Origin: Bacteroidetes bacterium HGW-Bacteroidetes-7
GTDB taxonomy: Bacteria; Bacteroidota; Bacteroidia; Bacteroidales; UBA932
Direction of reading: 5' to 3'
Assembly (NCBI GenBank): GCA_002842465.1
Contig: PHDA01000010.1
Span: forward strand, 1-64,000
DNA length: 64,000 bases
The notes under the pieces are model-generated. The model saw only the letters and a program-made list of their open reading frames with translations, did no database searches and had not been told where the DNA came from. Positions 1,991 to 19,277 of this stretch are shown one piece after another (within the stretch, counting starts at the first letter, position 1; every line of letters starts with the position of its first letter). Both the position numbers and the translations under genes were made by a program.

Positions 1991-2031
1991 TTGTTTATGT
2001 GAAAATTAAACCATTTTTAAAAATCATTATT

Positions 2032-2268
2032 ATGAATTTTATCGACTATAAAAAAAGTACTTCCACTCTTTCTCATGATCAAATGAAAACTATAAAAGGT
2101 GGAACAGGAACATGTGGATACATGGGACCAATTATTGACGGTCAGCGAGATATTATATGCAATATTTCCAAGTCAGAAGCAATGTTTTATATGTCAGCAT
2201 ACTTAGAAGACGACAATGACGCATATTGGTGTTGCGATAGCTGCGCTAGCACTTCGTACTGTGGTTGA
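2032..2268 (+). CDS. Cys-rich double-glycine precursor peptide A
   Basis: This is a 78-aa peptide. ATG at 2032 is preferred over the GTG at 1999 because it gives a normal GG leader: LSHDQMKTIKGG ends at residues 23-24, the type of site cut by C39 peptidase exporters. The 54-residue core has six cysteines (28, 43, 67, 68, 71, 77), clustered at the C-terminus, with acidic and Tyr residues. The next genes encode a TlpA-like thioredoxin and a VKOR/DsbA-like fusion, so three disulfides are a reasonable prediction. No modification enzyme follows directly in this unit. It may be a bacteriocin-like or signalling peptide; the activity is unknown. The core resembles no named family that I recognise. 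Confidence 0.75.
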   Translation: MNFIDYKKSTSTLSHDQMKTIKGGTGTCGYMGPIIDGQRDIICNISKSEAMFYMSAYLEDDNDAYWCCDSCASTSYCG

Positions 2269-2289
2269 CAGTTACTCTATTTCTCCTTT

Positions 2290-2319
2290 TAGGTCATTGG
2301 AAAAATTTCCAATGACCTA
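2290..2319 (+). terminator. Hairpin after precursor A
   Basis: TAGGTCATTGGAAA (2290-2303) and its exact complement TTTCCAATGACCTA (2306-2319) form a perfect stem 21 nt after the precursor stop. There is no long T-run, only TTCATCCTTTT nearby. It could be a leaky terminator or an mRNA-stabilising element that raises precursor expression over the downstream genes. Confidence 0.6.
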
Positions 2320-2362
2320 ATTCATCCTTTTAAACATATTTTTTTATCAATAAATTTCAATT

Positions 2363-3934
2363 ATGACATTGAAAAACACATTTCTCATATTTACTATCTG
2401 GTTATTATTCCCTCAATATTATTGTTGGGGTTTTGAAAAAGAAAATGAGAACAATTCTAATAAAGGAATTGTTCTAATTATAAAAAATGCGCCAATTCAA
2501 AAATCATTTCAAACTCCTGGTGGCCTTACAAGGCTGAGAAGCAATCTGGCACTTTTCTCATATATAGATGATTCAGGAAATTCAGTGTTACTTTATACTC
2601 AAAAAGAACAGGATACATTAAGAATAGACATTAAGTTAGATTTTTTAGAGTTAAAGTTTCTCTATCAGGGATGTGAATCCACATATTTCCTATTAAAAAA
2701 TAAGGATACTGTTTCTTTTGACTTTGATTCAACAGGCTATCCTTCTCTAAAAAGTTCTTTGTCCCCAGAGTTGACATCCATGTATAATTTTCCGTCATCA
2801 ATTAAATCTCGCAAATTACTCTGGGACCTGGAGCCATTGACACTTTTGTTCGATTTTGGGCACAATGTAAGAACAGTAGCAGCAGCAAAACAAAGAGCTC
2901 CTGAATTATTTGAGAAATGGAAAGCAGATTATGTTTGCATTGATATTTTAAAAGACGCGTATTACGATTACATCAAAAATTATAAATCCACACTGGATTC
3001 TTTGTACTCATTAGGCGAGATGCCGGTAAATTATAAAGAATACTATGATTATCAATTATATAGGAAGCAGTGGACCTTCTACATTTCCGAGTTTTATTAT
3101 GATAGAAAAAAAATATCTGAGTTATCTTTACCAAGAACAAATAGTACTATTTATGATTTTCTTAACGACAAACTTCTCTATTACTCGTCGTATTGCTCTT
3201 TCTTGAGTTGTTTTTCATATCCTTACTTGCATAAAGCCAATAAAATTCCCTCGGTAAAATTAGATAATAAAAGCTATATAGATTACAGAACAGCATTTGA
3301 TTCAATATCAGTCAATAAAAAGATTCCACCAAAGAGCAGAAACCTATTGTTATATTATAAATTGGTAGATATTAATCAATATTTTGCGCAGAGTGATATT
3401 ATTAAATATTCTAAAAAATATTTAGATATATCAGGAGATAGTATTGGATTAAAAAAAATACTTTCTACTAACGAAACAAAGTTGACTATTAACCCAACTG
3501 TCGCAGATCTGCAATTAATTGATAATAACGGAAAAACATTAACAATTAAAGATGTTTTTGACAAACATAAAGGGAAGGTTATTTATATTGATTTCTGGGC
3601 AAGTTGGTGCACTCCATGCATACAAGGAATGCCCGATTCTAAGAAGCTCAGGCAAGAATATTCAGGAAAAAATATAGTATTCATCTTCTTGGCAAAGAGT
3701 GATAAATTAGATATTTGGAAAACAAAAAATAAAGAACTTATTGGCAATGACTTAAATAGTGAAAGCTATTTTATTACCAATTCAAAAACATCTAAGATGT
3801 TAAAAATGCTGACTATAGAAGCAATTCCAAGGTTTCTTCTTTACGACCGAAATGGTGTTATTGTGCATAAAAATGCACCAAGGCCTCATAGTAAAGAGAT
3901 TAGAGAGCTATTTGAAAAATACTTAAATAAATAA
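2363..3934 (+). CDS. TlpA-like thioredoxin-fold lipid- or periplasm-facing protein
   Basis: This is a 523-aa protein with an N-terminal export signal (residues 1-23, hydrophobic LIFTIWLLF). Residues ~30-370 form a large domain of unknown fold, of the type placed before thioredoxin modules in Bacteroidota TlpA/AhpC-TSA proteins. Residues ~375-523 are a thioredoxin domain with FWASWCTPC; the CxxC cysteines are about 416 and 419. AIPRFLLYD supplies the cis-Pro loop. Enzymes of this type exchange disulfides outside the cytoplasm. It lies 94 bp after the six-cysteine peptide and 19 bp before the VKOR fusion, so it probably reduces or isomerises peptide A disulfides. That substrate is inferred from context. 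Confidence 0.8.
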   Translation: MTLKNTFLIFTIWLLFPQYYCWGFEKENENNSNKGIVLIIKNAPIQKSFQTPGGLTRLRSNLALFSYIDDSGNSVLLYTQKEQDTLRIDIKLDFLELKFLYQGCESTYFLLKNKDTVSFDFDSTGYPSLKSSLSPELTSMYNFPSSIKSRKLLWDLEPLTLLFDFGHNVRTVAAAKQRAPELFEKWKADYVCIDILKDAYYDYIKNYKSTLDSLYSLGEMPVNYKEYYDYQLYRKQWTFYISEFYYDRKKISELSLPRTNSTIYDFLNDKLLYYSSYCSFLSCFSYPYLHKANKIPSVKLDNKSYIDYRTAFDSISVNKKIPPKSRNLLLYYKLVDINQYFAQSDIIKYSKKYLDISGDSIGLKKILSTNETKLTINPTVADLQLIDNNGKTLTIKDVFDKHKGKVIYIDFWASWCTPCIQGMPDSKKLRQEYSGKNIVFIFLAKSDKLDIWKTKNKELIGNDLNSESYFITNSKTSKMLKMLTIEAIPRFLLYDRNGVIVHKNAPRPHSKEIRELFEKYLNK

Positions 3935-3953
3935 CATTGTAGGTTGATTTTTT

Positions 3954-5555
3954 ATGAAAAAACGAAAGATTATTCGTGATAATCAAAAAGAGATATTAAA
4001 AATATTCTTAAAAAGAATTAATTATCCATACACAGATAGTTTATATTCACAATTAGAAATGCATCCGGATTTTCCAAGCTTTATGTCTTTCCAATACATT
4101 TTCAAAAAAATTGGAATTGATAGTATTGCTGTTAGTACAAATTATGAGCAATTACAAGATAACCTCCCAAAACCAATCTTAGTCCATATAACTTCAAATA
4201 CTGATTTTTTTTTACTTGTTGAAAAGGCAGATGATAAGTTTGTCTACGTTTTCAATAGTAGACTTAAACTAGAGCCAATAAAAAAAGATGTTTTCCTTAA
4301 GATGTGGAAAGGGAATGCTATGCTAGTAAACATTACTGAAGTACCATCGGCTAAATTACTCGTTACTGATAAAATACAGAATGTATTGGATAAATTAAAA
4401 GTGCCCTTTACAATTAGCACGTTTTTAGTGCTTCTCTCGTACTTAATATATTTTCGAATAGGTGAGCGAAATGTATTAAACTGGGCATATATCTTTTTAT
4501 TCTTTATTGGTTTGGCATTTTCAGTGTGTTTGCTTATAGAAAATGTAAACAAACACAACATTTTTATTAAAAAAATATGTTCATCAAAATCATTAAAGAA
4601 AAACGTAAATTGTTCATCAATTTTAAATTCAAAAGATGCGTATTTTTTGGGAATATTTTCATGGGCTGATATTGGGCTGATTTTTTTTTTATTTTTAATA
4701 TTTGTCTCTTTAATTTTTCCTGTTAATACTGCTAACACATTATCATGTTTTGCTTCAATTGTGTCTTTTCCATATGTCTTTTACTCAATATATTATCAAC
4801 GGTTTATTGCAAAATCTTGGTGTACATTATGTTTGGGTGTTCAAACTGTCTTTCTGTTAATGTTTGCGTTGTGCATACTATTTATCAAGCAGATAACCTT
4901 TGCTCCGCTTCAAAATGGTAATAGTATTTTTTATCTGATTTTTGTTATATCTTTTTTAATAAGTGTCTATTCATGGTTAAAACCATATTTGATTATAAAG
5001 GAGAGATACAAATATGTCGAAAAGGAACTTGCTATCATTAAGCATTATACGGCAATTAAAGAAGTGCTTTTTTTAAAAGAGCCCTCTTTCCCTACTAATA
5101 AAATTAGAAAAATTGTCTTGGGCAATCAGCACACACAAGATAAAATATCAGTAGTTTTTAATACTATATGTGATGTCTGTGTAAACGACATGAAGGTATT
5201 ACTATCATTTTTTAAAACTAAAGAAAATACCAATCTAGAACTTATATTTTTTTTACAAAAAAAGGATAATCCAATATCATATACGATTGCTATAAATTTA
5301 TTGCATTGCTATATGAATAATCCATCATATTTCGTCAATGTGCTAGAAGACTATATAAATGGTTATCCTGCAAGCAAATCCAAATTTCAAAATATTCCTT
5401 CAAATACAAATCCAGAGGAATTAAATGAAATAATTTCTGAGCAGGCGAAATGGTGTATCGCTAATAAATTCTCTGGAACTCCAATAATCTTATTTAATAG
5501 TAAAATTTTACCAAGAATATACTCTATTAATGACCTCGATTACATGTGCTTTTAG
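3954..5555 (+). CDS. C39-like/VKOR/DsbA-like fusion, disulfide-forming membrane protein
   Basis: This is a 533-aa protein. Residues 1-130 resemble a C39-peptidase-like domain but lack a clear catalytic Cys-His pair. Residues ~150-345 hold about five or six membrane helices with the VKOR cysteines: a loop pair C209/C220 and the redox motif WCTLC (C290/C293). Residues ~365-533 are a thioredoxin/DsbA-like domain with ICDVC (C406/C409) and a cis-Pro in FSGTP (P510). VKOR proteins oxidise a DsbA-like partner and pass electrons to quinone. Here both are fused, so the protein should make disulfides outside the membrane. It lies downstream of a six-Cys precursor and a TlpA-like gene, a layout known from Bacteroidota bacteriocin-type clusters. 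The C39-like part may bind the GG leader; that is inference. Confidence 0.85.
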   Translation: MKKRKIIRDNQKEILKIFLKRINYPYTDSLYSQLEMHPDFPSFMSFQYIFKKIGIDSIAVSTNYEQLQDNLPKPILVHITSNTDFFLLVEKADDKFVYVFNSRLKLEPIKKDVFLKMWKGNAMLVNITEVPSAKLLVTDKIQNVLDKLKVPFTISTFLVLLSYLIYFRIGERNVLNWAYIFLFFIGLAFSVCLLIENVNKHNIFIKKICSSKSLKKNVNCSSILNSKDAYFLGIFSWADIGLIFFLFLIFVSLIFPVNTANTLSCFASIVSFPYVFYSIYYQRFIAKSWCTLCLGVQTVFLLMFALCILFIKQITFAPLQNGNSIFYLIFVISFLISVYSWLKPYLIIKERYKYVEKELAIIKHYTAIKEVLFLKEPSFPTNKIRKIVLGNQHTQDKISVVFNTICDVCVNDMKVLLSFFKTKENTNLELIFFLQKKDNPISYTIAINLLHCYMNNPSYFVNVLEDYINGYPASKSKFQNIPSNTNPEELNEIISEQAKWCIANKFSGTPIILFNSKILPRIYSINDLDYMCF

Positions 5556-5576
5556 TTATTTCCAAACTGTTAATAT

Positions 5577-5753
5577 ATGCCAATTGAATTTTATCTACAA
5601 TTAGATTCCATGGATTGCGGTCCCACCTGCCTAAGAATGATTGCCAAACACTATGGCAAAACATTTAGTCTCGATACTTTGCGTCAAATGTCGAAACCCC
5701 TAAATGTGTCGGAACCCCTAAATGGAGGACAGCGTCTCTTTAGACAAATTTAA
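5577..5753 (+). pseudogene. Truncated C39 peptidase-ABC exporter (N-terminus only)
   Basis: ATG at 5577, 21 bp after the VKOR gene, opens a frame whose first ~37 codons match the N-terminus of the intact exporter at 11950, including LDSMDCGPTCLRMIAKHYGK and FSLDTLRQ. The catalytic-Cys motif DCGPTC is kept. At about 5689 the frame runs into tandem IS3 termini and stops at 5751-5753. The membrane and ATPase domains are missing. Unit A therefore once had its own exporter and now probably relies on the one at 11950. Confidence 0.85.
5689..5706 (+). repeat. Tandem extra copy of the IS3 left terminus
   Basis: TGTCGAAACCCCTAAATG lies directly before the element's own left end, TGTCGGAACCCCTAAATG, at 5707. 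The two 18-bp units differ at one position. It could record an earlier insertion, or insertion of one IS next to the end of another. Confidence 0.75.
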
Positions 5754-5778
5754 TAAATTTGTAAGGAGAAACGACATT

Positions 5779-6045
5779 ATGAAAAAGACAAAATTTAGTG
5801 AAACACAAATCATCAAAGCCATCAAAGAGTATGAATCTGGTGCAACTGCAGAGGTGATTTGCAGAGAGTACGGTATCTCAAGAGCCACATTATACCTGTG
5901 GAAAAAGAAATACTCCGGGATGGAATCAAGCCAGTTAAAACGATTAAAGGAACTTGAAGAAGAGAATCGTAGGCTAAAACACATGTATGCAGAACTTTCC
6001 ATTGATCATAAGATATTAAAGGAAGTAATCGAAAAAAAGCTCTAA
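5779..6045 (+). CDS. IS3-family transposase orfA
   Basis: This is an 88-aa protein starting at ATG 5779; an upstream in-frame extension to 5722 is only IS terminus. [16 protein letters not shown] and [16 protein letters not shown] form the N-terminal helix-turn-helix. [17 protein letters not shown] is the leucine-zipper region, and the protein ends EVIEKKL, as in the orfA of IS407-like members. An A-rich slippery run near 6031-6038 precedes the orfA stop, where -1 frameshifting to orfB would occur in an intact element. OrfA alone cannot transpose the element. Confidence 0.85.
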
Positions 6046-6055
6046 AGCCCGAAGC

Positions 6056-6250
6056 CAGAACAGCTTTATTGAACGATTTAATGGGAGTTATAGAAGAGGA
6101 GTACTAGATGCATATTTATTTGATAACTTAAACCAGGTAAGAGAACTGCCAGAGAATTGGATGAATGATTACAACGAATCAAGACCACACGAGTCGTTGG
6201 GAGATATATCTCCAAAAGCATACTTAGAAAAAATGAAAACAGTAACCTAA
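6056..6250 (+). pseudogene. IS3-family transposase orfB, C-terminal remnant
   Basis: Sixty-four codons contain [20 protein letters not shown] and NESRPHESL, the end of an IS3 DDE transposase around and after the catalytic Glu. The N-terminal orfB start (KKALKPEAR, -1 frame near 6033) is joined in another frame directly to this tail. About 200 residues with the first catalytic Asp residues are deleted. Confidence 0.85.
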
Positions 6251-6414
6251 ATAAAAGAAGTAATTTAACCAAAATGTCTAAAAGGGACATGACCTAAAAA
6301 GGGGATTTTGACAGTCAGCGTTTTGTATGCAAATCATTGGGGTCTATTTTATATCATTGCTCTTGAGCACTAAATACCAGCGAATAAGCAAAATAATAAA
6401 TATTTACAATATCG

Positions 6415-6677: not shown

Positions 6678-6893
6678 ATGAAAAAGTTAGAAGATTTCGC
6701 GAACATATTAGTAAATAACGAAAAGCAAATTCCTAATAGCAATTTATCAAAAATTTATGGTGGGGATAATGCTCAATTAACAGCTGTTTGTACTCCAAGT
6801 GGTAATAGATATGACGCTTGGGATTCAAGCACGGGCTACGAAGATGCCGATTTTTGGGATTATGTTGATCCCCAAGAATTAAGGCCAGAATAA
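6678..6893 (+). CDS. Graspetide-like double-glycine precursor peptide B
   Basis: This is a 71-aa peptide. The leader ends in NLSKIYGG (GG at 28-29). The 42-residue core has donor side chains T35, T39, S41, S50, S51 and T52, and many acidic residues (D46, D49, E55, D56, D58, D61, D64, E67). ATP-grasp ligases of graspetide systems join such side chains as ester or amide rings. Only one Cys is present (C38), so disulfide folding is not the main fate. The ATP-grasp gene follows 102 bp downstream, after a hairpin. Which residues are linked cannot be read from sequence. The product is probably exported by the C39 transporter at 11950. Confidence 0.8.
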   Translation: MKKLEDFANILVNNEKQIPNSNLSKIYGGDNAQLTAVCTPSGNRYDAWDSSTGYEDADFWDYVDPQELRPE

Positions 6894-6920: not shown

Positions 6921-6956
6921 AGTCTAATACTTTTGCTATTGCAGAAGTATTAGACT
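6921..6956 (+). terminator. Hairpin after precursor B
   Basis: AGTCTAATACTTTT (6921-6934) pairs with AGAAGTATTAGACT (6943-6956), 13 of 14 positions, with an 8-nt loop, 27 nt after the precursor stop. Position and form parallel the hairpin after precursor A. It is probably a partial terminator or stability element. Confidence 0.6.
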
Positions 6957-6995: not shown

Positions 6996-7967
6996 ATGGT
7001 TCTCATAATATCAGAAGAAAGTGATATAACTACAACTGAAGTTATCAAGTGGTTATTGTATTATAAATATCCAAAAGAGAAAATTATTCGTATTAATGAT
7101 AATAGTTTAATAAATATTGAAAAAATAATCATCGGAAATATAAAAAATGATTTGATAATCTCAGTAGATACTAACAATACAAAACTAAAGCTAAATCTAA
7201 ATAACATCAAATCTGTTTGGTATAGAAGGGGAAAATTAAATCTAATACAAACCAAATCAGGAAATGCTCAACTAGATAAATCTTTATCTTCTGAACTTTT
7301 TTCATTAGAGAGATATATTAATAATATTATTGATAATTCCGAAATCAGGATAGGACGATATCGAGAAAATTTTCTAAATAAATTAGATTGTTTAAAAGCA
7401 GCAAAGGAAGTTGGTTTAAAAATCCCAGAAACATTAATTACCTGTAAAAAAAAATTTCTAAATAAAGGTTTGCTAACAACGAAAGCAATTAAGGATGTAG
7501 TAAGGTTACCTATAAATAATAATCAGACTCTAGCACTAGGAACTATATTATTGGATAAAAACTTTATTCAGAAATCTCCAACATCTTTCTTTCCAACGCT
7601 TTTTCAAAGTTATATTGAGAAAGATTATGAGTTAAGGATTTTTTTTGTTTTTCAAAAATGTTTTCCAATGGCCATTTTCTCTCAAAGTAATGAACAAACA
7701 AAAATTGACTTTAGAAATTACGATAGAAACTTGCCCAATAGGACTGTTCCCTACGTCCTTCCCAATGTAATTAAATCTCAGATTTTGAGATTAATCACAA
7801 AGTTGGGATTAACATCTGGTTCTATAGATATGATTGTTACTCCAAAAAAAGAATACGTTTTTCTTGAAGTTAATCCAATTGGACAATTTGCTCAAGTTTC
7901 TAAACCATGTAACTACTACTTAGAAAGAGAAATAGCAAGATTATTAATTAGTTATAAAGAGAACTGA
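6996..7967 (+). CDS. gwsG: ATP-grasp peptide ligase, grasp-with-spasm type
   Basis: This is a 323-aa protein. The N-terminal part has VWYRRG (76-79), seen in the MvdD-like/graspetide ATP-grasp group. Residues ~125-323 are the ATP-grasp fold: QSYIEKDYELRIFFV in the nucleotide-binding region and FLEVNPIGQF with metal ligands E291 and N293. Such enzymes use ATP to activate acidic side chains of a precursor core and form macrocyclic esters or amides in the cytoplasm. It follows precursor B and precedes a SPASM-type protein, the defining trio of grasp-with-spasm systems. The family call is firm; the ring pattern is unknown. Confidence 0.85.
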   Translation: MVLIISEESDITTTEVIKWLLYYKYPKEKIIRINDNSLINIEKIIIGNIKNDLIISVDTNNTKLKLNLNNIKSVWYRRGKLNLIQTKSGNAQLDKSLSSELFSLERYINNIIDNSEIRIGRYRENFLNKLDCLKAAKEVGLKIPETLITCKKKFLNKGLLTTKAIKDVVRLPINNNQTLALGTILLDKNFIQKSPTSFFPTLFQSYIEKDYELRIFFVFQKCFPMAIFSQSNEQTKIDFRNYDRNLPNRTVPYVLPNVIKSQILRLITKLGLTSGSIDMIVTPKKEYVFLEVNPIGQFAQVSKPCNYYLEREIARLLISYKEN

Positions 7968-7971
7968 TTTT

Positions 7972-8148
7972 ATGAAAATTAATCCTCAAAATGTCCCACT
8001 CAATTTTAACAAGTGGAAAGTTATTGATAAATCATCATTAACCTCAAAAGATTCATATCAAATCAAATTTTATTTATGTGGTTATGCTGATTCTTTTCCA
8101 ATCTCATTTTATAAACCTATCCGCTGCTCCTATAAAAGAACACTCTAG
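7972..8148 (+). CDS. Small ORF between ATP-grasp and SPASM genes
   Basis: This is a 58-aa ORF that starts 4 bp after the ATP-grasp stop and ends 2 bp before the SPASM gene start. It begins MKINPQNVPLNFNKWKVIDK. No GG site, signal peptide or clear membrane helix is seen. Tight spacing on both sides supports translation. It could be an accessory subunit or a remnant of a larger protein; I do not recognise it. Confidence 0.5.
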   Translation: MKINPQNVPLNFNKWKVIDKSSLTSKDSYQIKFYLCGYADSFPISFYKPIRCSYKRTL

Positions 8149-8150
8149 TT

Positions 8151-9176
8151 ATGTCTAGTAATATATTTATAATTCATAGTTGCTGTATTCCGGTAAAAGG
8201 CCATAGAAGATCTATAATTTATGATCTAAATAGGAATCAATATTTTTATATCACAAACGATTTATATGATATATTAGTGAGCTTCAATGGAACATCAAAA
8301 AAGGTGGTTTATAAAAATTTTGATAGTATTAACTACTCTTTGCTTGATGATTATTTTAAATTTTTAGAGGGAAATGAAATAATTTTCTACACAAAGAAAG
8401 ATAATGAAAAATTATTTCCAAGATTAAAAGTTGAATGGGAATCTCCGTCAATTATTACTAATGCAATAATTGATATTACACAAGAAATCGAATCTGATAA
8501 TTTTATATTGGTTCTTTCTCAGCTTGAGAGCCTTCAATGTGAAGCAATTCAAATTAGAGAAGTTGGGAATGGGATTTCCAGTGTTCATTTGAAGAGACTT
8601 TTAGATATTATTAGTAAGAGTACGATAACTTATGTTGAGCTTTTTTTACATTATCGCCACCAAGATGACATTGAAGAACTAAGTAGAATCGCTAATGTAC
8701 ATAATCGCATTTTCAATATTTATATTTACAATTCTCCAAAATATTCTATTGAGTCATTTAAAAGCAGGCCATATGGGAATGTACTTTATATTAAAGATAA
8801 TTTGAAAAATAGTGGCAAAATTCATGACGAATCAATGTTTTTTGTAAATATTTTATTGTTTAATGAATCTCATTTCTTTAATAATTATTACAATAGAAAA
8901 ATATATATAGATGAAAACGGAAATATTAAAAACTCACCTGAAGTTGATGCTATTTTTGGCAATATTAAACAAACATTAATTCTTGATGTAATAAAAGATA
9001 AAAAATTTAATTACCTATGGGATATCAAAAAAGATGATATAATAATTTGTTGCAACTGTGAGTATAGATACATGTGTGTTGATAGCAGAATTCCTAAAAA
9101 AGACGAACTAAAGAATATTTGGTTTTGTGAAAACAAGTGTAAATATGATCCATATATATGTCAATGGTCTAAATAA
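8151..9176 (+). CDS. gwsS: SPASM-domain peptide maturase of a grasp-with-spasm system
   Basis: This is a 341-aa protein. The N-terminus (IFIIHSCCIPVKGHRRSIIY) and the central part have no radical-SAM CxxxCxxC motif. The C-terminus carries a dense cysteine set C300, C301, C303, C309, C326, C330 and C337, with CNCEYRYMC typical of the SPASM tail that holds auxiliary iron-sulfur clusters. In grasp-with-spasm systems this stand-alone SPASM protein partners the ATP-grasp ligase. Its exact role, whether leader binding or chemistry, is not established in what I know. Nothing here suggests true radical SAM activity. Confidence 0.85.
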   Translation: MSSNIFIIHSCCIPVKGHRRSIIYDLNRNQYFYITNDLYDILVSFNGTSKKVVYKNFDSINYSLLDDYFKFLEGNEIIFYTKKDNEKLFPRLKVEWESPSIITNAIIDITQEIESDNFILVLSQLESLQCEAIQIREVGNGISSVHLKRLLDIISKSTITYVELFLHYRHQDDIEELSRIANVHNRIFNIYIYNSPKYSIESFKSRPYGNVLYIKDNLKNSGKIHDESMFFVNILLFNESHFFNNYYNRKIYIDENGNIKNSPEVDAIFGNIKQTLILDVIKDKKFNYLWDIKKDDIIICCNCEYRYMCVDSRIPKKDELKNIWFCENKCKYDPYICQWSK

Positions 9177-9182
9177 TATTAA

Positions 9183-10796
9183 ATGAAAAAGTTATATATA
9201 ATAGTCTTAATTGCGGTAATAGTTTCCTCATGCCATATGAGCGGGGTAGATTATCCAATTTTAATCAATCTGGAAAATGAGCAAGATTCTAAAGGATTTG
9301 CAGAAATTACTGCTTTAATAGAAACATCCTCTCCAAAGCAAAGCAATGTGGAATTTTCAGAAAATAATATTGTTCTGATGGACTTTAAATCCGGTAAACT
9401 TCTGAGATTTGACCGAGAAGAAAAATTTTTGAATCTAGTTGCAAAGAGAGGCGTGGAAGAAGGCGATTTTTTCTCATATATCACTCACAAAATTGATGAA
9501 AAGAACCAAGTTATATATATTCTAGATTGGTGTAAAATTCTAAAATTCAGCATTCATGGCAATTACTTGGGATCATTAACGGTTTTAGATCCGAAGGTGC
9601 CCGAAGATGGTGTTCCCGATGATTTAATATTAACACCTGACGGGAATTTATTGATACATATTAATAATTACTTGGGATGGGCAAAATACGATTATACAAT
9701 TATTGACACTTTAGGAAACGAAATTTCTCATCATTTGGTGAAGACAAACTATGACAGAACAAAATTACCCACCAAACATCAAAAATTGGGAGTTGCTTCA
9801 TATTTTTATGATAATACACTTCATGTGAAAGATTACGGTGACACGCTATTTATGATTATTAACAACCAGTTTAAACCAAAATATATTTTCAACAGTAAAT
9901 TATCATTAGCCGGCAAAGAAGTATTGACCTATAAGGATCACGATTCAGCCCTGAGATATTCTAATGTATTTGAAAATAAAGATTTCGTTATTTTCAAGGC
10001 CATTGACCAGGAAAATTGTTACGCTGGGAAATACAATAAAAAGAAGAAAAATGCGAAGATATATAAAGAAGCTTTCGCAAATTGTAGTCGTGTTGAAGAA
10101 TTCGCTGACAAACTGCTCCAGAAGATCCCGGATACTATCCTATCCAAAATCGCAGATAACATCTCAGACAATCCGAAGCAGTTTCTCGAGAATGTAAATG
10201 GTTATATATTTAGAATGATAGAGATAGATAACGGCATTTATATTGGAGAAACAGAGGTAACTCATGCTCTATGGAAATCAGTTTACGGAGAATATTATCC
10301 AACTTATAAAAGAGATAAAAATGAACCTGTTAGTTATGTATCATGGTTCACAGCAGTTGCTTTTACACAAAAATTAAGCAAAATAACAGGTAAAAAATAT
10401 CGTTTACCAACTGAAGAAGAATGGGATAAAGCGACTGGTGCAAATTCGCGTAATCTAGGCTGGTCCGGAACAGAAAAAGAAGAGGAATTGTATTTATACG
10501 CGAACTATAACAATAAGGTTCAAAATAGAATATTACCTGTGAAAACTAAAAAGCCTAATCAGTTAGGATTTTATGACCTGAGCGGAAATGTGAGTGAATG
10601 GTGCATTGATTGGTCTAATCCTGAACCCTATAAATATAAGAATCACTATCTAGGCCCTTATATGGGAACGACTAAGATTGCAAAAGGAGGAAGCTATTCC
10701 TCCAAAGCAGAATTGATGACTATTAATATAAATAATAGCGTTCTGCCAAATATGTCTAATAAAACAATGGGAATTAGATTAGCGTTAGAATTATGA
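9183..10796 (+). CDS. Lipoprotein fusing a 6-bladed-propeller-like region to an FGE-like domain
   Basis: This is a 537-aa protein with signal and lipobox IVSSC (lipid Cys 17). Residues ~40-330 resemble the propeller of the next gene (FKSGKLLRFDREEKF and similar blades). Residues ~345-537 are a formylglycine-generating-enzyme/sulfatase-modifying-factor fold: YIGETEVTHALW, VSYVSWFTAVAF, YRLPTEEEWDKA and GNVSEWCIDW. The C-terminal GGS motif is kept (AKGGSYSS), but the two catalytic cysteines that follow it in true FGEs are absent. It is therefore more likely a binding or structural module than an aerobic formylglycine former. It overlaps the next gene by 4 bp (ATGA). Confidence 0.75.
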   Translation: MKKLYIIVLIAVIVSSCHMSGVDYPILINLENEQDSKGFAEITALIETSSPKQSNVEFSENNIVLMDFKSGKLLRFDREEKFLNLVAKRGVEEGDFFSYITHKIDEKNQVIYILDWCKILKFSIHGNYLGSLTVLDPKVPEDGVPDDLILTPDGNLLIHINNYLGWAKYDYTIIDTLGNEISHHLVKTNYDRTKLPTKHQKLGVASYFYDNTLHVKDYGDTLFMIINNQFKPKYIFNSKLSLAGKEVLTYKDHDSALRYSNVFENKDFVIFKAIDQENCYAGKYNKKKKNAKIYKEAFANCSRVEEFADKLLQKIPDTILSKIADNISDNPKQFLENVNGYIFRMIEIDNGIYIGETEVTHALWKSVYGEYYPTYKRDKNEPVSYVSWFTAVAFTQKLSKITGKKYRLPTEEEWDKATGANSRNLGWSGTEKEEELYLYANYNNKVQNRILPVKTKKPNQLGFYDLSGNVSEWCIDWSNPEPYKYKNHYLGPYMGTTKIAKGGSYSSKAELMTININNSVLPNMSNKTMGIRLALEL

Positions 10797-11923
10797 AGAA
10801 ATGTCTATTATTTATACTGGTATTGTTATCATCCTGTCGGCAGAATGAACAAGACCTTAATGTTATAAGTATAAATCCAGATTCCCAGGGGGAATTCACG
10901 TTTAATGACGTATATGAATTACAATCGGTTATTCCTCTTGAGACTATCGATTCGTCTTTATTCGGAGAAGTAGCGAATATTATTTTTATTAAAGAGAATT
11001 TATTCATTTTATCCGGAAGAAAATTCAGCAGATATTACTATACAGTATTTGATACCACCGGGAATTTTTTGTACAGACAGAATAAAACAGGAAGAGGACC
11101 GGGTGAGTATACACGAATCAGTAATTTTATGTCAAATGGCGACAGCTTAATTGTAAAATCCGATAATAAACTTACATATTACGATATTGAAGGAAAATAC
11201 ATAACAGAGAAATCGGGCCCTTCAACTGTTTTTTTAGCAATGGAATACATGCCCGATGGTTGTTACCTTATAAACTATTCAATAACATCTGCCGATACCG
11301 TTGACGGCAAATATTATTCTCTTAAGCTGTACTCTCCCACAGGTGAATATATAAAAGGGTTTCTTCCAATACCTAAAGCAGTTACCGAGCGTCCTTTTTT
11401 TTCGGAAGGAACAACTTTTATTTCTAAAAATAGCAGAACATATTTCTTCCCTTTGACACATAATTCAATCTTCGAGTTTCGCTCAGAAGATAAATCATTT
11501 AATGAGCTATATAAAATTAAAATAGAAGGAATACCGGAGTTTGACATATTCAATGTTACGCCTGCACAACTTGAGGGTTCAAATTGGATTAGGAGTAAGA
11601 GCATGATATGGCTTCTGGATATAAATGATAAGTTTCTGACATTAAGGATAAACTATGGGACAAAGAGAAACATTGCCATTGTCAACCGGGAAGACAATAA
11701 GACGATTCTGATTCCAAACGAAAAATTCAATGATGAGCTAAATGAATTACCAGTAATTCCTATAAATAATAACAAAGGTACACTGGTTTCTATCGTAAAT
11801 TCTTTATCAATAATAGAAACTCAAACTAAAAATCCAAATTCGATAGGTTCAAAACTAAAGGCGACACTCACAGATAACTCAAATTCTGTAATTATTGTGT
11901 ATAAAATGAAACAAAAGCGCTAA
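10793..11923 (+). CDS. 6-bladed beta-propeller lipoprotein
   Basis: This is a 376-aa protein with signal and lipobox LLSSC (Cys 15). Repeated blade-like segments such as VFDTTGNFLYRQ and GRGPGEYTRISNF are typical of the Bacteroidota 6-bladed propeller lipoproteins (NHL-like, often annotated BF3164 or DUF4934 type). It probably sits on the outer surface or in the periplasm and binds a ligand. It is coupled to the preceding FGE-like lipoprotein and followed after 26 bp by the exporter. Related genes occur at 18094 and 19278. Function in peptide export or immunity is possible but unproven. Confidence 0.75.
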   Translation: MKKCLLFILVLLSSCRQNEQDLNVISINPDSQGEFTFNDVYELQSVIPLETIDSSLFGEVANIIFIKENLFILSGRKFSRYYYTVFDTTGNFLYRQNKTGRGPGEYTRISNFMSNGDSLIVKSDNKLTYYDIEGKYITEKSGPSTVFLAMEYMPDGCYLINYSITSADTVDGKYYSLKLYSPTGEYIKGFLPIPKAVTERPFFSEGTTFISKNSRTYFFPLTHNSIFEFRSEDKSFNELYKIKIEGIPEFDIFNVTPAQLEGSNWIRSKSMIWLLDINDKFLTLRINYGTKRNIAIVNREDNKTILIPNEKFNDELNELPVIPINNNKGTLVSIVNSLSIIETQTKNPNSIGSKLKATLTDNSNSVIIVYKMKQKR

Positions 11924-11949: not shown

Positions 11950-14145
11950 ATGAAATTTCCACATTACTCACAATTAGACTCGAGGGACTGTGGGCCGACT
12001 TGTCTTAGAATGATTTCCAAATACTATGGCAAAACATTTAGTCTTGATACTTTGCGCCAAAGGAGTGAATATACTAGGCAAGGTGTATCTATGCTTGGGA
12101 TAAGTAATGCCGCTGAAAGTATAGGATTTAAATCGTTGGGAGCAAAGCTATCCTTTCAAGAATTATGCGAAGCACCTCTGCCTTGTATCGTTCACTGGAA
12201 TCAAAATCATTTTGTTGTAGTCTATAAAATAAAACGTACCGGTAAAAGAATAAAAATATATGTAGCAGACCCTGCCGCCCGGTTGGCAGCGTTTACTCCG
12301 GAAGAATTCAATCGCTCCTGGATAAGCACAAAGTCCGGAGGAGAAGATAAGGGTATCGCTTTGCTTCTGGAACCTACCCCTGAATTTTATGTCGAACCAG
12401 GAGAGAAGGTTAATAGAAACGGCTTTGGATTTTTATACTCATATGTAAAGCCATATAAACAATTTATTCTGCAACTTATAATCGGGTTAATATTTGGTAG
12501 CCTTATTCAATTGATATTACCCTTTTTAACCCAGAATATTGTCGATATAGGCATTGGAACTAAGAATATAAATTTTATATGGCTGGTGTTGATTGCTCAA
12601 ATGGTATTGGCATTGAGTACTGCTTCAGTTAATTTTATCAGGAGTTGGATATTATTGCATTTGGGAGCCAGAATCAATATCTCTCTCATTTCGGATTTTC
12701 TTATAAAATTGATGCGTCTGCCTGTTGGTTTTTTTGATACTAAAATGACTGGCGATCTAATGCAGAGAATTGGCGACCATAAAAGAATTCAGACTTTTTT
12801 AACCGGTTCTTCACTCAATATTCTATTTTCATTTTTCAATATAGTAATATTCGGGATTGTGCTACTCTACTATAATATAGCCATTTTCTCTATTTTCTTT
12901 ATTGCCTCCAGCCTATATATTCTTTGGATATCTCTGTTTATGAAAAGACGGAGAGAGCTGGATTACAAATCGTTTACCCAAAATGCAGCCACTCAAAGTA
13001 GTGTTATCCAACTAATCACCGGTATGCAGGAAATAAAGCTTAATACTTGTGAAAAGCAGAAGAGATGGGAGTGGGAAAGAATTCAGGCAAAGTTGTTCAA
13101 AATTAGCACCAAAGGATTAGCATTGGGCCAGTATCAAGAAGCTGGAGGAACATTAATAAACCAATTTAAGAATATTATTATTACTGTTGTTGCAGCAAAC
13201 TCAGTAATTAAAGGTGATTTGACTCTTGGTATGATGTTGTCTGTGCAATATATTATTGGACAGCTTGATGCTCCAATTTCTCAAATTATTGTATTTGTAC
13301 AACAGACTCAGGATGCAAGAATTAGTCTTGAACGATTGGCCGAAATACATGGTAAAGATGATGAAGAGGCTGTAGACAGCTCCCTGATAACAGAAATTCC
13401 AAAAGACAAGGCTCTGTTAATAAATAACCTTTCATTTAAATATGCCGGAAGTGGAGAAGATTATGTGTTAAGGGACATCAATCTAACAATTCCCTCCGGA
13501 AAGACAACAGCCATCGTTGGAGTCAGCGGAAGCGGTAAGACAACAATTATTAAGCTATTGTTAGGTTTTTATCCTCCATCAAAAGGATTGCTGATGTTAG
13601 GCGAAAACAATTTAAATACCTTTAGTATGAATGCGTGGCGCAAGAAGTGTGGCGTTGTAATGCAGGATGGCTTTATTTTCTCAGACACAATTGCCAATAA
13701 TATTGCTCCGGGAGCGGAGCATATAGATAAAGAGAAATTAGGCCAAGCCGTTGAAATTGCCAACATTCTGGATTTTATTGAATCTCTTCCACTGGGGTAT
13801 AATACTAAAATCGGACAAGAGGGTGTAGGGCTGAGTCAAGGGCAGAAGCAACGGATATTAATCGCTCGGGCAGTATATAAGGATCCTCAGTTTATCTTTC
13901 TGGATGAGGCTACAAACGCGCTGGATTCAAACAATGAGAGAACAATAATGGAAAACTTGGATGATTTTTTCATTGGAAAAACCGTGATTATTGTAGCTCA
14001 CAGGCTTAGCACAGTGAAAAATGCAGATAAAATTGTTGTTCTTGATAAAGGGCTTATCATAGAGGAGGGCACTCATCAGGAACTGACTGCAGCAAAAGGG
14101 GCCTACTTTCAGTTAGTGAAAAACCAATTAGAACTTGGGAATTAA
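11950..14145 (+). CDS. C39 peptidase-containing ABC exporter
   Basis: This is a 731-aa protein. Residues 1-130 are the C39 protease: DCGPTC with catalytic C14, NHFVVVY with H87, and VADPA with D107. Residues ~160-440 are the six-helix ABC membrane domain. Residues ~480-731 are the ATPase: Walker A GVSGSGKTT, signature LSQGQKQR, Walker B FIFLDEATNALD and the H-loop VAHRLS. Such transporters cut GG leaders and export the core, so both precursors fit as substrates. The first ~37 residues closely match the truncated copy at 5577. It ends 2 bp before its HlyD partner. Confidence 0.93.
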   Translation: MKFPHYSQLDSRDCGPTCLRMISKYYGKTFSLDTLRQRSEYTRQGVSMLGISNAAESIGFKSLGAKLSFQELCEAPLPCIVHWNQNHFVVVYKIKRTGKRIKIYVADPAARLAAFTPEEFNRSWISTKSGGEDKGIALLLEPTPEFYVEPGEKVNRNGFGFLYSYVKPYKQFILQLIIGLIFGSLIQLILPFLTQNIVDIGIGTKNINFIWLVLIAQMVLALSTASVNFIRSWILLHLGARINISLISDFLIKLMRLPVGFFDTKMTGDLMQRIGDHKRIQTFLTGSSLNILFSFFNIVIFGIVLLYYNIAIFSIFFIASSLYILWISLFMKRRRELDYKSFTQNAATQSSVIQLITGMQEIKLNTCEKQKRWEWERIQAKLFKISTKGLALGQYQEAGGTLINQFKNIIITVVAANSVIKGDLTLGMMLSVQYIIGQLDAPISQIIVFVQQTQDARISLERLAEIHGKDDEEAVDSSLITEIPKDKALLINNLSFKYAGSGEDYVLRDINLTIPSGKTTAIVGVSGSGKTTIIKLLLGFYPPSKGLLMLGENNLNTFSMNAWRKKCGVVMQDGFIFSDTIANNIAPGAEHIDKEKLGQAVEIANILDFIESLPLGYNTKIGQEGVGLSQGQKQRILIARAVYKDPQFIFLDEATNALDSNNERTIMENLDDFFIGKTVIIVAHRLSTVKNADKIVVLDKGLIIEEGTHQELTAAKGAYFQLVKNQLELGN

Positions 14146-14147
14146 TT

Positions 14148-15467
14148 ATGGCAACGAAAAATGATTACAATATTGAGATTCGCTCAGAAGAGGTGAATGA
14201 TATCTTGTCCAGACCGCCACGTTGGATAATTCGTTGGGGCATAGGTGTAATTTTCCTTGTAGTCCTCATTATTCTAGTTGGGAGTTCTTTCTTCAAATAT
14301 CCGGATGTTATTACAGCACCTATAACTGTTACATCCGAGATATTGCCGGCAAATATTATCTCAAAAGTAAGTGGCCGGCTTGAGAAGCTTTTTGTAAAAG
14401 ATGAAGATTCGGTTGAAGCAAATGAAGTTGTTTCTATTATTGAAAATCCAACGGAGTATTCGAGTTATAAAATACTTAAAGATTTGTGCAACAGCTTTTC
14501 TAAATTAATCTCAAGCGGAGAAATTCTTAATAGTCCAACATTTCCAGTCAATCTTAAATTAGGTAATATTCAGTCTGCATATACTCAATTTCTGAAAAGC
14601 TATAATGACTTCAAAAATTTTATGGAAATTAATTATCACGAGAAAAAGATTGTATTTATTAAAAATCAGATTGAACAACAAAAACTAATGTTGAATTTAA
14701 GTGAACGGCAGTTGATTATCTCTTCTGAACAATATGAACTATCAAAACGATCATACATAAGAGATTCGCTACTCTTTGGGCTTGGCGTTTTATCTCAGAC
14801 AGATATAGAACAAAGTCAAACTAAGTTTCTTGCTGCTAACCAGCAATTTGAAAATACGAAATCATCAATTATTAATATGAAGCTGTCCATATTACAGGCA
14901 GATCAGTCGGTTTTTGAACTTAACCAAGATAAGGAAGATATTGTAAAAAGTTATGAAAACTCAATCATAGGTAATTTTAATATTTTGTTATCTCAAATAA
15001 CTGAATGGGAGAGAAGCTATCTACTAATTAGCCCTATAAGAGGAATTGTGGCCTTGACGAGCTTTTGGCAGGAAAACCAAAATATTAATGCAGGAGAAAT
15101 TGTGTTGACAATAATTCCCAATATGAATAAGGGGATATCCGGCAAGATTTATTTACCAATGCAAGGAGCAGGGAAAATAAGAATCGGACAAAAAGTAAAT
15201 GTGAAGTTTGATAACTATCCGTTTATGCAATATGGTATGATTCAAGTTGAAATAATGACTATTTCAAAAGTGCCGACTACTATTAATAATAAAAAAGTTC
15301 TAATTCTTAATGTAAAATTTCCAGATGGTTTAATTACAAACTACGGAATTAAATTAGAGCTGGGAGAAGAAATGTCTGGAACAAGTGAAATTATCACAGA
15401 AGATTTAAGTCTATTTCAGAGGTTTATAAATCCAATTAAGCATATAATAAAGAAAAATTCACTTTAG
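14148..15467 (+). CDS. HlyD-family secretion adaptor
   Basis: This is a 439-aa protein. It has a cytoplasmic N-terminus, one transmembrane helix at ~26-48 (WGIGVIFLVVLIILVGSSFF), and a biotinyl-lipoyl-like half (IISKVSGRLEKLFVKDEDSV). A long coiled coil of about 120 residues follows (~170-270), then the second half-motif and barrel (LLISPIRGIVALTSFW, GEIVLTIIP). It bridges the C39 exporter to an outer-membrane channel; no TolC-like gene is in the window. It is translationally coupled to the transporter. Confidence 0.9.
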   Translation: MATKNDYNIEIRSEEVNDILSRPPRWIIRWGIGVIFLVVLIILVGSSFFKYPDVITAPITVTSEILPANIISKVSGRLEKLFVKDEDSVEANEVVSIIENPTEYSSYKILKDLCNSFSKLISSGEILNSPTFPVNLKLGNIQSAYTQFLKSYNDFKNFMEINYHEKKIVFIKNQIEQQKLMLNLSERQLIISSEQYELSKRSYIRDSLLFGLGVLSQTDIEQSQTKFLAANQQFENTKSSIINMKLSILQADQSVFELNQDKEDIVKSYENSIIGNFNILLSQITEWERSYLLISPIRGIVALTSFWQENQNINAGEIVLTIIPNMNKGISGKIYLPMQGAGKIRIGQKVNVKFDNYPFMQYGMIQVEIMTISKVPTTINNKKVLILNVKFPDGLITNYGIKLELGEEMSGTSEIITEDLSLFQRFINPIKHIIKKNSL

Positions 15468-15528: not shown

Positions 15529-15687
15529 CCCCCACCAGGGAACGCCGACTGAAAGGAGGCAGTCCTATCCGAACCACCCTAATTTACTATCAACTGTTTT
15601 ACAGATATTTAACATTTCGATCCATAATTTTCTACTGTAAAATATGGCAACTTTTGTAAGTTATGAATCAAAAGTCTATATTTACAT

Positions 15688-15710
15688 ACCACTACGATAT
15701 ATGTAGTGGT
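15688..15710. promoter_or_regulatory. Inverted repeat upstream of the AbiE genes, likely operator
   Basis: ACCACTAC (15688-15695) and GTAGTGGT (15703-15710) form a perfect 8-bp inverted repeat with a 7-bp spacer, ending 16 bp before the antitoxin ATG. AbiEi antitoxins are known to bind inverted repeats in their own promoter. An overlapping ORF start at 15663 would bury the repeat inside the coding region and is not preferred. Confidence 0.6.
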
Positions 15711-15725
15711 TTGCAAATATACAAC

Positions 15726-16541
15726 ATGAATAATTTAATAGAAAAGAATAAGATTGCAAATTGGGACAAATTCTTTGTGGAACTGCAATCACAAGGTCGT
15801 TACACCTTTGCTTTTGATGAGTTGCGTGGTCGGTTCGATTTATCGGAAGAAACGCTTTTGCAAGGATTGTACAGGTATAAAGTTAAGAAGCAGATAGCAC
15901 AAATCCGTAAGGGTTTTTACGCTATTATTTCACCCGAATATTCCAAGCAAGGAATGTTGCCACCATATTTGTTTATCGACGATTTAATGAAATCGCTAAA
16001 TAAGCCATATTATGTGGCATTACTATCTGCGGCGGCTTTGAATGGCGCAGCACATCAGCAGCCCATGGAGTATTTTGTGATAGCACAAACCCCTGCCCCA
16101 AGAAGCATTAACAGTAAGAAGTTGAAAATTTTGTTTTTATCGAAAAACAATTGGGAACAGGATGATATTGTACAAAAGACAACCAATGTAGGTTACATCA
16201 ATGTTTCTTCTCCCGAATTGACGGCACTTGATTTATTGTCTTATAACGAAAAAATTGGACTAAACAGGGCGACAACCGTATTGCAGGAATTGGCGCAAGT
16301 TATGAAAGTATCTACGCTTTCACGAACGGCCAAGCGATTCCCAAGTACGCCGGTTATTCAGCGCTTAGGCTATATTTTTGATAAAGTTTTAGGTGAAAAA
16401 AAATTGGCCGAAGCATTGTTGAAAATATTAAATAGTAGAACCGTTGTCCCGGTCTTGCTATCTGTTCAAAAAGAGAAACAAGGCGAGGTAGATGAAATAT
16501 GGAAAGTAATTAAAAATATGGAAATAGAAAGCGATTTATGA
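15726..16541 (+). CDS. AbiEi-family type IV antitoxin
   Basis: This is a 271-aa protein starting MNNLIEKNKIANW at ATG 15726. It has an N-terminal winged-helix region (FAFDELRGRFDLSEETLLQG) with KGFYAIISPEYS, then the AbiEi C-terminal domain (YVALLSAAALNGAAHQQP, SSPELTALDLL). AbiEi represses its own operon and counters the AbiEii toxin without direct binding (type IV). Its stop overlaps the toxin start by 4 bp (ATGA). The genes sit right beside the IS scars, consistent with a mobile defence insertion. Confidence 0.88.
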   Translation: MNNLIEKNKIANWDKFFVELQSQGRYTFAFDELRGRFDLSEETLLQGLYRYKVKKQIAQIRKGFYAIISPEYSKQGMLPPYLFIDDLMKSLNKPYYVALLSAAALNGAAHQQPMEYFVIAQTPAPRSINSKKLKILFLSKNNWEQDDIVQKTTNVGYINVSSPELTALDLLSYNEKIGLNRATTVLQELAQVMKVSTLSRTAKRFPSTPVIQRLGYIFDKVLGEKKLAEALLKILNSRTVVPVLLSVQKEKQGEVDEIWKVIKNMEIESDL

Positions 16542-17329
16542 TACCTCAACGATACTTGGTTGAATGGAAAACGCAAGCCCCTTGGCCTGCTAATGCACAA
16601 GTCGAACAAGATTTAATCATTACAAGGGCGCTGGTAGAAATATTTTCCGACGATTTATTGAAAAATGCATTGGCTTTTCGAGGAGGAACAGCCTTGCATA
16701 AGTTGTATTTACAGCCACAAGCGCGCTATTCCGAAGACATTGATTTAGTGCAAATCAATTCTGAACCAATCAACCCTATACTCAAACAAATCCGTGAGCG
16801 ACTGTCGTTTCTTGGTACAAAGAGGACAGTAAAGCAACATATTCACAACAACACCATCATTTACCGTTTTGACACAAGCACACAGCCGATAATCAATATG
16901 CGGTTGAAAATAGAAATCAATACACGCGAACATTTTCATGTGTTAGGATTAAAACAAATTCCCTACAAAGTAGAAAACGGTTGGTTTTCCGCTGAATGTA
17001 TGTTGACAGGATACGAATTAGAAGAACTCTTGGGCACAAAATTACGCGCCTTGTATCAAAGACGAAAAGGTCGCGATTTATTCGATTTATACTGGGCTTT
17101 GAGAAACCAACAAGTCGATATTGAAAAACTTATACATTGTTACAAGACCTACATGCAGTCTTCGGTTGACAAACCGCCTACACAAAAACAGTTCCTTATT
17201 AATATGGCAGAAAAAATGACTGACCACGAATTTTTAGATGATATTCATATTATCCTCAAGCCGGGAATTGAATATAACAATGAGGATGCTTGGGAAGTGG
17301 TGAGGAGAGAAATAATTGAAAAGATTTAG
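16538..17329 (+). CDS. AbiEii-family nucleotidyltransferase toxin
   Basis: This is a 263-aa protein. The polymerase-beta-like nucleotidyltransferase core is visible: FRGGTALHKLYL (G49, G50) and YSEDIDLV (S65, D67, D69). The later KLRALYQRRKGRDLFDLYW matches the conserved C-terminal helical motif. AbiEii proteins transfer nucleotides to RNA targets such as tRNA ends and cause growth arrest during phage attack. All expected motifs are present, so the toxin is probably active. It is coupled to the antitoxin upstream, and a broken defence-like gene begins 5 bp downstream. Confidence 0.9.
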   Translation: MIPQRYLVEWKTQAPWPANAQVEQDLIITRALVEIFSDDLLKNALAFRGGTALHKLYLQPQARYSEDIDLVQINSEPINPILKQIRERLSFLGTKRTVKQHIHNNTIIYRFDTSTQPIINMRLKIEINTREHFHVLGLKQIPYKVENGWFSAECMLTGYELEELLGTKLRALYQRRKGRDLFDLYWALRNQQVDIEKLIHCYKTYMQSSVDKPPTQKQFLINMAEKMTDHEFLDDIHIILKPGIEYNNEDAWEVVRREIIEKI

Positions 17330-18093: not shown

Positions 18094-19248
18094 TTATAAA
18101 TTTTTAAACAATGAATCATCAATTTGTAATTTGAGGATATATGCATTTTTGTTTATTGATGAATTTATTGACTTTAATTTGCTTGAAAATGCTTGTCTAT
18201 TCTTTTCACTAATTTCGTCAAAAAATTCAGGTTCTACTATGAAAACCAATTCATTATCAGCTGTTAATAATTTTGGTGTATTAAAATAGATAGCCTCAGG
18301 CGAATTGCTTCTAAAAGAAATTAATAAGTAATTTTTATTTTTAATGTCATATAAAAAATGGTTAATCTTTTTTTCTGTACCCTCTTTCATAAAACAAGCA
18401 TACAAATAATTCTCATTTACATGAAAAGTATTAATGCTGATATTACCACTTTTCATAATTATCTCCACTATCTTCTCTTTGTCTAATTTCAGGACATCTT
18501 CGGAAATCTGATATTCTCCAAAATCGAATGAATAGCTTATTATTGCACTAGTATCCAAAAGTCGGTATATCCTTCCATCAAGCATGTTTTTATAATAAAC
18601 GCGATTCCCTGTAGATGAAAAGTTTTTTTCTACTAGAGGACCATAAAAATCAATAGCATCCCTGCTTAGACATTTTGCAACTATATTACCCTTATTATCT
18701 ATTTTGTAGACTTGTGCAAGCCCAACAGGGTTAACATCAAAGTATATTGCTCCTTTTGACAACCAATAGCCCCCATCTCTTGTTTTAGAAAAAGAATATG
18801 ATCGAACCGGAGTGGGAATTTTTTCGATGAACTTTCCAGAATTATCATATTTTGTAATGTTTTGGTCAATAATACTAAGGATTTCTAAATTTCCATCAGT
18901 ATCAATTAAAAAATCAGTAGTTTCAATAACTTCATTTGGCCCTCTACCCATTATGGGAATCTTATTTACAAATTTACCTATTTCATTATACTCGTAAATA
19001 TTACCCTTTTGTAATATAAAATACTTGCCATTAAAGAGTTCCATCATAGAGCGATTACTTATAAATATTTTTTTGGCCGTATCTAATGGTATAATGCTGA
19101 TATGATCAATTAGTGACGAGTATTTTGATGAATCTACGACTTGTAATTTTGAAAAAGAAAACTCAACAGTTTTTTCGGATGAGTTATTATTCTTACACGA
19201 AACAACAGCAAAAATTAGTATTACAACTGTTATAAGAGGATTTTTCAT
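18094..19248 (-). CDS. 6-bladed beta-propeller lipoprotein
   Basis: This is a 384-aa protein with signal and lipobox AVVSC (Cys 18). Blade-like motifs such as YEYNEIGKFVNKIPIMG and GRGPNEVIETTDF match the propeller lipoproteins at 10793 and 19278. It lies 29 bp downstream of the 19278 gene, on the same strand, likely one operon. Probably a surface or periplasmic sensor or binding protein; the ligand is unknown. The AT-rich composition is like the accessory island. Confidence 0.75.
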   Translation of the reverse strand: MKNPLITVVILIFAVVSCKNNNSSEKTVEFSFSKLQVVDSSKYSSLIDHISIIPLDTAKKIFISNRSMMELFNGKYFILQKGNIYEYNEIGKFVNKIPIMGRGPNEVIETTDFLIDTDGNLEILSIIDQNITKYDNSGKFIEKIPTPVRSYSFSKTRDGGYWLSKGAIYFDVNPVGLAQVYKIDNKGNIVAKCLSRDAIDFYGPLVEKNFSSTGNRVYYKNMLDGRIYRLLDTSAIISYSFDFGEYQISEDVLKLDKEKIVEIIMKSGNISINTFHVNENYLYACFMKEGTEKKINHFLYDIKNKNYLLISFRSNSPEAIYFNTPKLLTADNELVFIVEPEFFDEISEKNRQAFSSKLKSINSSINKNAYILKLQIDDSLFKNL

Positions 19249-19277
19249 AAATATCTAATTTAGAAGCTTCATTCTTA

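Follow-up and report, generated by a model that had tools for sequence, protein, structure and literature searches.

Why should a peptide biosynthesis cluster encode, between its maturation and export genes, a lipoprotein that joins a propeller to an FGE-like domain? The window considered here (the whole 64,000-nucleotide stretch analysed) belongs to the metagenome-assembled genome (MAG) of a groundwater bacterium, which comprises 2.39 Mb in 42 contigs and is 92% complete. A first-pass annotation, made from the sequence alone, had read one of its proteins as a propeller fused to an FGE-like fold without the catalytic cysteines, and had proposed that it acts as a ligand- or peptide-binding surface protein, perhaps in immunity or uptake, and not in sulfatase maturation.

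Architecture of the fusion lipoprotein

The protein (537 amino acids; 9183..10796, + strand) starts with MKKLYIIVLIAVIVSSC, a lipoprotein signal peptide ending in the lipobox VSSC with Cys17 as the lipid-bearing residue, followed by a DUF5128 propeller, a helical linker and a Cys-less FGE-like domain. The propeller portion (residues 54-298; 9342..10076, + strand) matches the Pfam family DUF5128 (PF17170), a six-bladed propeller, across positions 47-298 of the 321-position profile, at 42.8 bits against a gathering score of 22.9 (E 5e-11). The FGE-like domain, which has a C-type-lectin fold, occupies residues 345-537 (10215..10793, + strand) by Pfam, structure model and structural alignment; the FGE-sulfatase profile matches residues 372-534 above its gathering score (104 bits, E 1e-29), and the motifs RLPTEEEW, GNVSEWC and KGGSY are all found. 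In human FGE, the reference spacing is GGSY followed by C336 at +2 and C341 at +7, a numbering that matches the mutant entries C336S and C341S; at these fixed distances after GGSY the fusion carries S507 (10701-10703) and M512 (10716-10718). The domain order, lipid anchor and missing cysteines are thus as first described, and no known set of catalytic residues is present in either module.

The whole fusion was modelled with AlphaFold2 and aligned to solved structures with VIA-align. Most of the C-terminal domain is modelled confidently, and the propeller weakly. For the FGE part, Z scores were highest with TvpA (25.1), followed by CarF (21.2; 176 residues at 2.7 Å), PvdO (21.1), CalU17 (20.7), PorK (19.9) and human FGE (19.3; 187 residues). 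All of these matches begin near residue 340, where the fold starts in the model, so the FGE-like domain is complete although the Pfam profile misses its short N-terminal part. The closest solved structure, TvpA (Treponema denticola variable protein 1, PDB 2Y3C), shares 36% identity with the fusion over 198 aligned residues and has the same non-catalytic, FGE-type C-type-lectin fold. When the propeller was modelled alone, together with three paralogues from the window, mean pLDDT was 51, and both propeller models are of low confidence. In a Foldseek search with such a low-confidence model, the best match, covering part of the fold, was the exported Bacteroides propeller BF0058 (4raa), with NHL propellers next and, further down, BtuG and XusB, two ligand-binding lipoproteins of Bacteroides. 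These last two are also lipoprotein propellers, and the solved ones bind cobalamin or ferrichrome, but the structural match to them is weak.

The fusion is predicted to have its anchor in the outer membrane. An acidic lipoprotein signal at positions +2 to +6 marks surface export in Bacteroidetes (PMC5080379); the residues that follow the lipid cysteine here at these positions are HMSGV, none of them acidic, though the consensus of this lineage may differ. A periplasm-facing position is therefore a better guess than the surface location originally proposed. The junction between the two modules lies in an open frame inside a 118-kb contig, and an error of MAG assembly is still a conceivable source of the fusion.

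Lack of the Cys pair, which had been taken as a special sign, is the norm in this region of the superfamily. Among 72 distinct FGE-like relatives from related genomes and viral contigs, 54 retain only the second cysteine and 15 have neither, so its loss in the fusion is nothing special; homologues with the pair, which the first-pass annotation had regarded as evidence against its reading, do exist (three of the 72), but the other 69 lack it. This agrees with the report that most bacterial FGE-domain proteins with N-terminal extensions are devoid of the catalytic cysteines (PMC5915273). The fusion is the only FGE-domain protein in the genome, and the single sulfatase-family protein (PF00884) of this 92%-complete assembly has the Ser-type active site SGPSR; no Cys-type sulfatase that could be a client of FGE was found there. 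Maturation of Ser-type sulfatases depends on anaerobic radical-SAM enzymes instead of FGE, and an FGE would therefore have no client in this genome. Because the Cys pair is absent and the only sulfatase is of the Ser type, sulfatase maturation is a very unlikely role for the fusion and was ruled out, in line with the initial proposal.

The surrounding graspetide operon

The peptide cluster noted around the gene is of a known kind, a branch-5 or grasp-with-spasm (gws) graspetide cluster of Bacteroidetes, with ATP-grasp and SPASM maturases scoring above their cut-offs and an LPL-type protein encoded directly upstream of the SPASM gene. All of its genes lie on the + strand. The putative precursor (71 amino acids; 6678..6893) has an MKKL leader, a GG site and a core with one Cys and several Thr, Ser, Asp and Glu residues; leader, GG and Cys are as in branch-5 precursors (PMC8939145), and profile searches gave no family match for it. 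GwsG, an ATP-grasp peptide maturase (6996..7967; TIGR04192, 281 bits, cut-off 230), and GwsS, a SPASM-domain peptide maturase (8151..9176; TIGR04193, 220 bits, cut-off 175), flank a putative LPL-type maturase helper of 58 amino acids (7972..8148). This small ORF was assigned by position and motifs: it aligns with small ORFs at the equivalent place in 20 other gws clusters and has a P-L motif and FYKPI in common with them, and the LPL family is described as a helper of branch-5 graspetide clusters (PMC8939145). The predicted product of the cluster is a cross-linked peptide.

The fusion gene starts 6 bp past gwsS and overlaps by 4 bp (ATGA) the gene of a second DUF5128 propeller lipoprotein (10793..11923; Pfam; lipobox LSSC). 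Next come a C39-peptidase ABC exporter (11950..14145; PF03412), the usual neighbour of GwsS, and a HlyD-type periplasmic adaptor (14148..15467; similar to TIGR01843 below its cut-off), a gene found in 15 of 42 gws loci. Intergenic gaps from gwsG to hlyD (4, 2, 6, -4, 26 and 2 bp) are so tight that these genes very likely form one transcript. As in the branch-5 gws clusters (TIGR04192, TIGR04193; PMC8939145), the MKKL-leader GG precursor, ATP-grasp, LPL-type protein, SPASM, C39-ABC and HlyD occur in one run; the present cluster differs from them in its two DUF5128 lipoproteins, one of them FGE-fused. A literature search under the name 'grasp-with-spasm' found no paper.

A sigma-70 promoter scan yielded no more matches than chance, and the Bacteroidetes-type promoter pattern occurred at near-chance frequency, with no instance upstream of the precursor. 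Between precursor and gwsG, a computed hairpin of 16 pairs with a 4-nt loop and a T-rich tail (6921..6956, + strand) is a possible attenuator, which could hold precursor mRNA above enzyme mRNA.

Upstream lies a second peptide module (1999-5753), with genes for a GG peptide (1999-2268; weak TIGR04149), an exported thioredoxin-like protein (2363-3934), a membrane protein containing both a C39 and a VKOR domain (3954-5555) and the first part of a C39-ABC protein (5577-) that closely resembles the start of the 11950 gene. This C39-ABC copy (5577-6290) is broken off after ~40 codons by an apparent IS3-type transposase remnant, consisting of an OrfA-like frame (5722-6045) and a short OrfB-like tail. 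Immediately past the exporter genes, a pair at 15663-17329 resembles, by reading, AbiEi/AbiEii type IV toxin-antitoxin genes, and two further DUF5128 propeller lipoproteins are encoded on the minus strand at 18094-20582.

Distribution of the fusion and its domains

GwsS was found in 23 of 393 sampled genomes of the order and in 12 of 395 sampled from the phylum, both counts including the source genome. The 42 other GwsS loci cover 566 kb, some being shortened by contig ends, and were scanned with profiles able to detect the FGE and DUF5128 control proteins. None of the 42 carried an FGE or DUF5128 gene, the window being the sole match. Graspetide clusters therefore need no such fusion, and its link to a peptide cluster is local, unlike a conserved linkage; the idea that it might recur beside other peptide genes was not borne out at these loci. 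In 12 of them the exporter gene immediately follows gwsS. The gap between the two holds extra genes in three clusters (L082, L084 and the window), and these differ each time, the other two sets being OmpA with DUF6624 and a ChaN-like lipoprotein with DUF6734, which argues that this gap takes cluster-specific cargo.

The searches turned up no full-length relative of the fusion, though each half is common. None of 60 relatives spans both domains, nor does any match in the order or phylum genomes; the propeller part, at E 1e-10, gave two weak partial matches in the 393 order genomes and none in the 395 phylum genomes; and viral contigs yielded no copy of the fusion, nor plasmids any match with 80% coverage. 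In a peptide-pattern search of 85,000 species genomes only the source MAG matched, by a method that reaches close relatives only and could therefore miss distant fusions. The first-pass annotation had held that a common fusion, unlinked to peptide clusters, would count against its proposal; with no second copy found, the fusion is not common.

DUF5128 genes themselves are abundant in the genus, occurring in 18 of 25 genomes. Of 39 C39-peptidase genes in the genus, 13 lie within 20 kb of a DUF5128 gene (three of the 13 in the window), against an expected maximum of ~6; this excess is modest and largely reflects one repeated locus with a propeller array, a TolC-like protein, an RND pump and a C39-ABC gene. 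One locus that was read gene by gene (L106; G000:C42:24000-43281) encodes an array of DUF5128 lipoproteins, a TolC-like protein, a periplasmic adaptor, two RND pumps, a histidine kinase with a response regulator, and C39-ABC. A propeller-to-C39 distance of ~12 kb recurs in eight genomes of the genus, an arrangement that points to a common function of these propellers in export or in sensing.

Candidate roles of the fusion

Of the roles considered, binding or immunity is the most plausible for the fusion. We put at about even the chance that it is a non-catalytic, periplasm-facing binding lipoprotein of the outer membrane that serves the cluster's self-protection or the export of its peptide. 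Made from the operon of the branch-5 cluster and translationally coupled to the second propeller lipoprotein, it would present two binding modules, the DUF5128 propeller and the non-catalytic FGE-type C-type-lectin fold. Co-transcribed and facing the periplasm, as we infer, it would most likely bind the exported cross-linked peptide, or the target of that peptide, in the envelope, and binding could in turn protect the producer or help release the peptide. A peptide-binding lipoprotein, in all likelihood one for self-protection, is favoured because both folds bind in relatives (TvpA and Mtd, for which ligand binding by this fold is documented [PMC5006420], PorK, and BtuG/XusB), and because CarF offers a precedent for immunity: a sensitive strain that expresses carF and carG becomes immune (PMC6813493). 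The modest excess of DUF5128 genes near C39-peptidase genes in the genus also favours this reading.

CarF is the best precedent for the fusion. Its fold is FGE-like, it belongs to an antibiotic cluster and it does not act in sulfatase maturation; an FGE-like fold inside an antibiotic or peptide cluster is likewise what we find here. The two differ in that the antibiotic of CarF is a β-lactam and the product here a predicted cross-linked peptide, and in that CarF has no known propeller fusion. The structure compared (PDB 5AOH) is, we take it from its title, that of the carbapenem protein CarF. To our knowledge, how the graspetide clusters of Bacteroidetes provide self-protection has not been worked out, and a lipoprotein encoded between maturases and exporter, with the fold of an antibiotic-immunity protein, is a concrete candidate for it. 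The survey of these clusters lists auxiliary lipoproteins without an assigned role (cluster 23), and neither a propeller nor a formylglycine protein turned up when its text was searched by word (PMC8939145). That the fusion is a dedicated two-module immunity lipoprotein, sequestering one specific cross-linked peptide, is a tentative and more specific proposal, with the odds against it; such a protein would be the first known for the class. If the general proposal is right, peptide binding joins the purposes for which the FGE fold is already known to be re-used, namely docking (PorK), ligand display (TvpA) and immunity (CarF).

An export accessory without any immunity role, in which the FGE-like domain would be a docking surface joining the second propeller lipoprotein and HlyD/C39-ABC at the outer membrane, is an unlikely alternative. 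In PorK, likewise an outer-membrane lipoprotein, a Cys-less FGE fold serves as docking surface and hub (PMC12421860); the fusion matches PorK structurally, the fusion gene adjoins the exporter genes, and in the genus propeller arrays share operons with RND genes and the gene of a TolC-like protein, close to a C39-ABC gene. However, other gws clusters have exporter genes without an FGE or propeller gene, and the insertion domains by which PorK makes its contacts have no counterpart in the ~190-residue domain of the fusion. PorK, GldK and GldJ share with it the FGE-like fold and the lack of both cysteines but have no propeller, and membership in these type 9 secretion and gliding families was rejected, with 45.6 bits against a cut-off of 350 for GldJ and 33.7 against 458 for PorK-GldK.

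The lipoprotein pair could also be a passenger, binding an unrelated nutrient or ion and moved into the operon with no function tied to the peptide. The fusion gene could have been carried along in this region, whose mosaic make-up includes an IS3 remnant and toxin-antitoxin genes of the AbiE type; both domains are absent from the 42 other gws loci, the genes in the gwsS-exporter gap vary between clusters, and a single genome of the genus may hold up to 24 DUF5128 genes. The tight spacing, common strand, ATGA overlap and a position that separates the cluster's two functional halves argue against a passenger, which we consider improbable; the fusion would then be merely one further domain combination.

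Chances are slim that the fusion modifies the exported peptide as a periplasmic tailoring enzyme of the PvdO, ToxD or EgtB class, with an FGE fold that works independently of the cysteines. FGE-fold proteins do recur in biosynthetic clusters, and PvdO, CalU17 and ToxD are close structural matches, but the Cys-Arg..Tyr-Arg segment conserved in most relatives reads MTININN in the fusion, which also lacks the DinB partner domain of EgtB. Assignment to the sulfoxide and selenoxide synthases EgtB, OvoA and SenA was rejected on scores below the family cut-offs (47.8 against 360, 39.2 against 400 and 29 against 420 bits, respectively).

It is scarcely credible that the fusion is a TvpA-like variable receptor with a C-terminal segment that a reverse transcriptase (RT) mutates, since, although TvpA is its best structural and sequence match and the genome holds a diversity-generating retroelement (DGR), the template repeat of that DGR does not match the fusion gene and the C-terminal segment has no template-repeat copy in the assembled part of the genome (92% complete), for which this reading is largely refuted.

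The DGR itself lies in a Mu-like prophage (contig G000:C3, locus L198, ~9251-11292). Its RT (10006-11292) carries the motif IGNYLSQ, and its template repeat (~9825-9904) matches variable repeats at ~9251-9330 and ~9643-9722, which within the core differ from the template only at template adenines; the two target genes stand in tandem (8922-9404 and 9425-9796). A second RT, with the motif MGSPTSP, is encoded on G000:C32 (locus L116) beside what are, by reading, a Cas1-like protein and other CRISPR-like genes.
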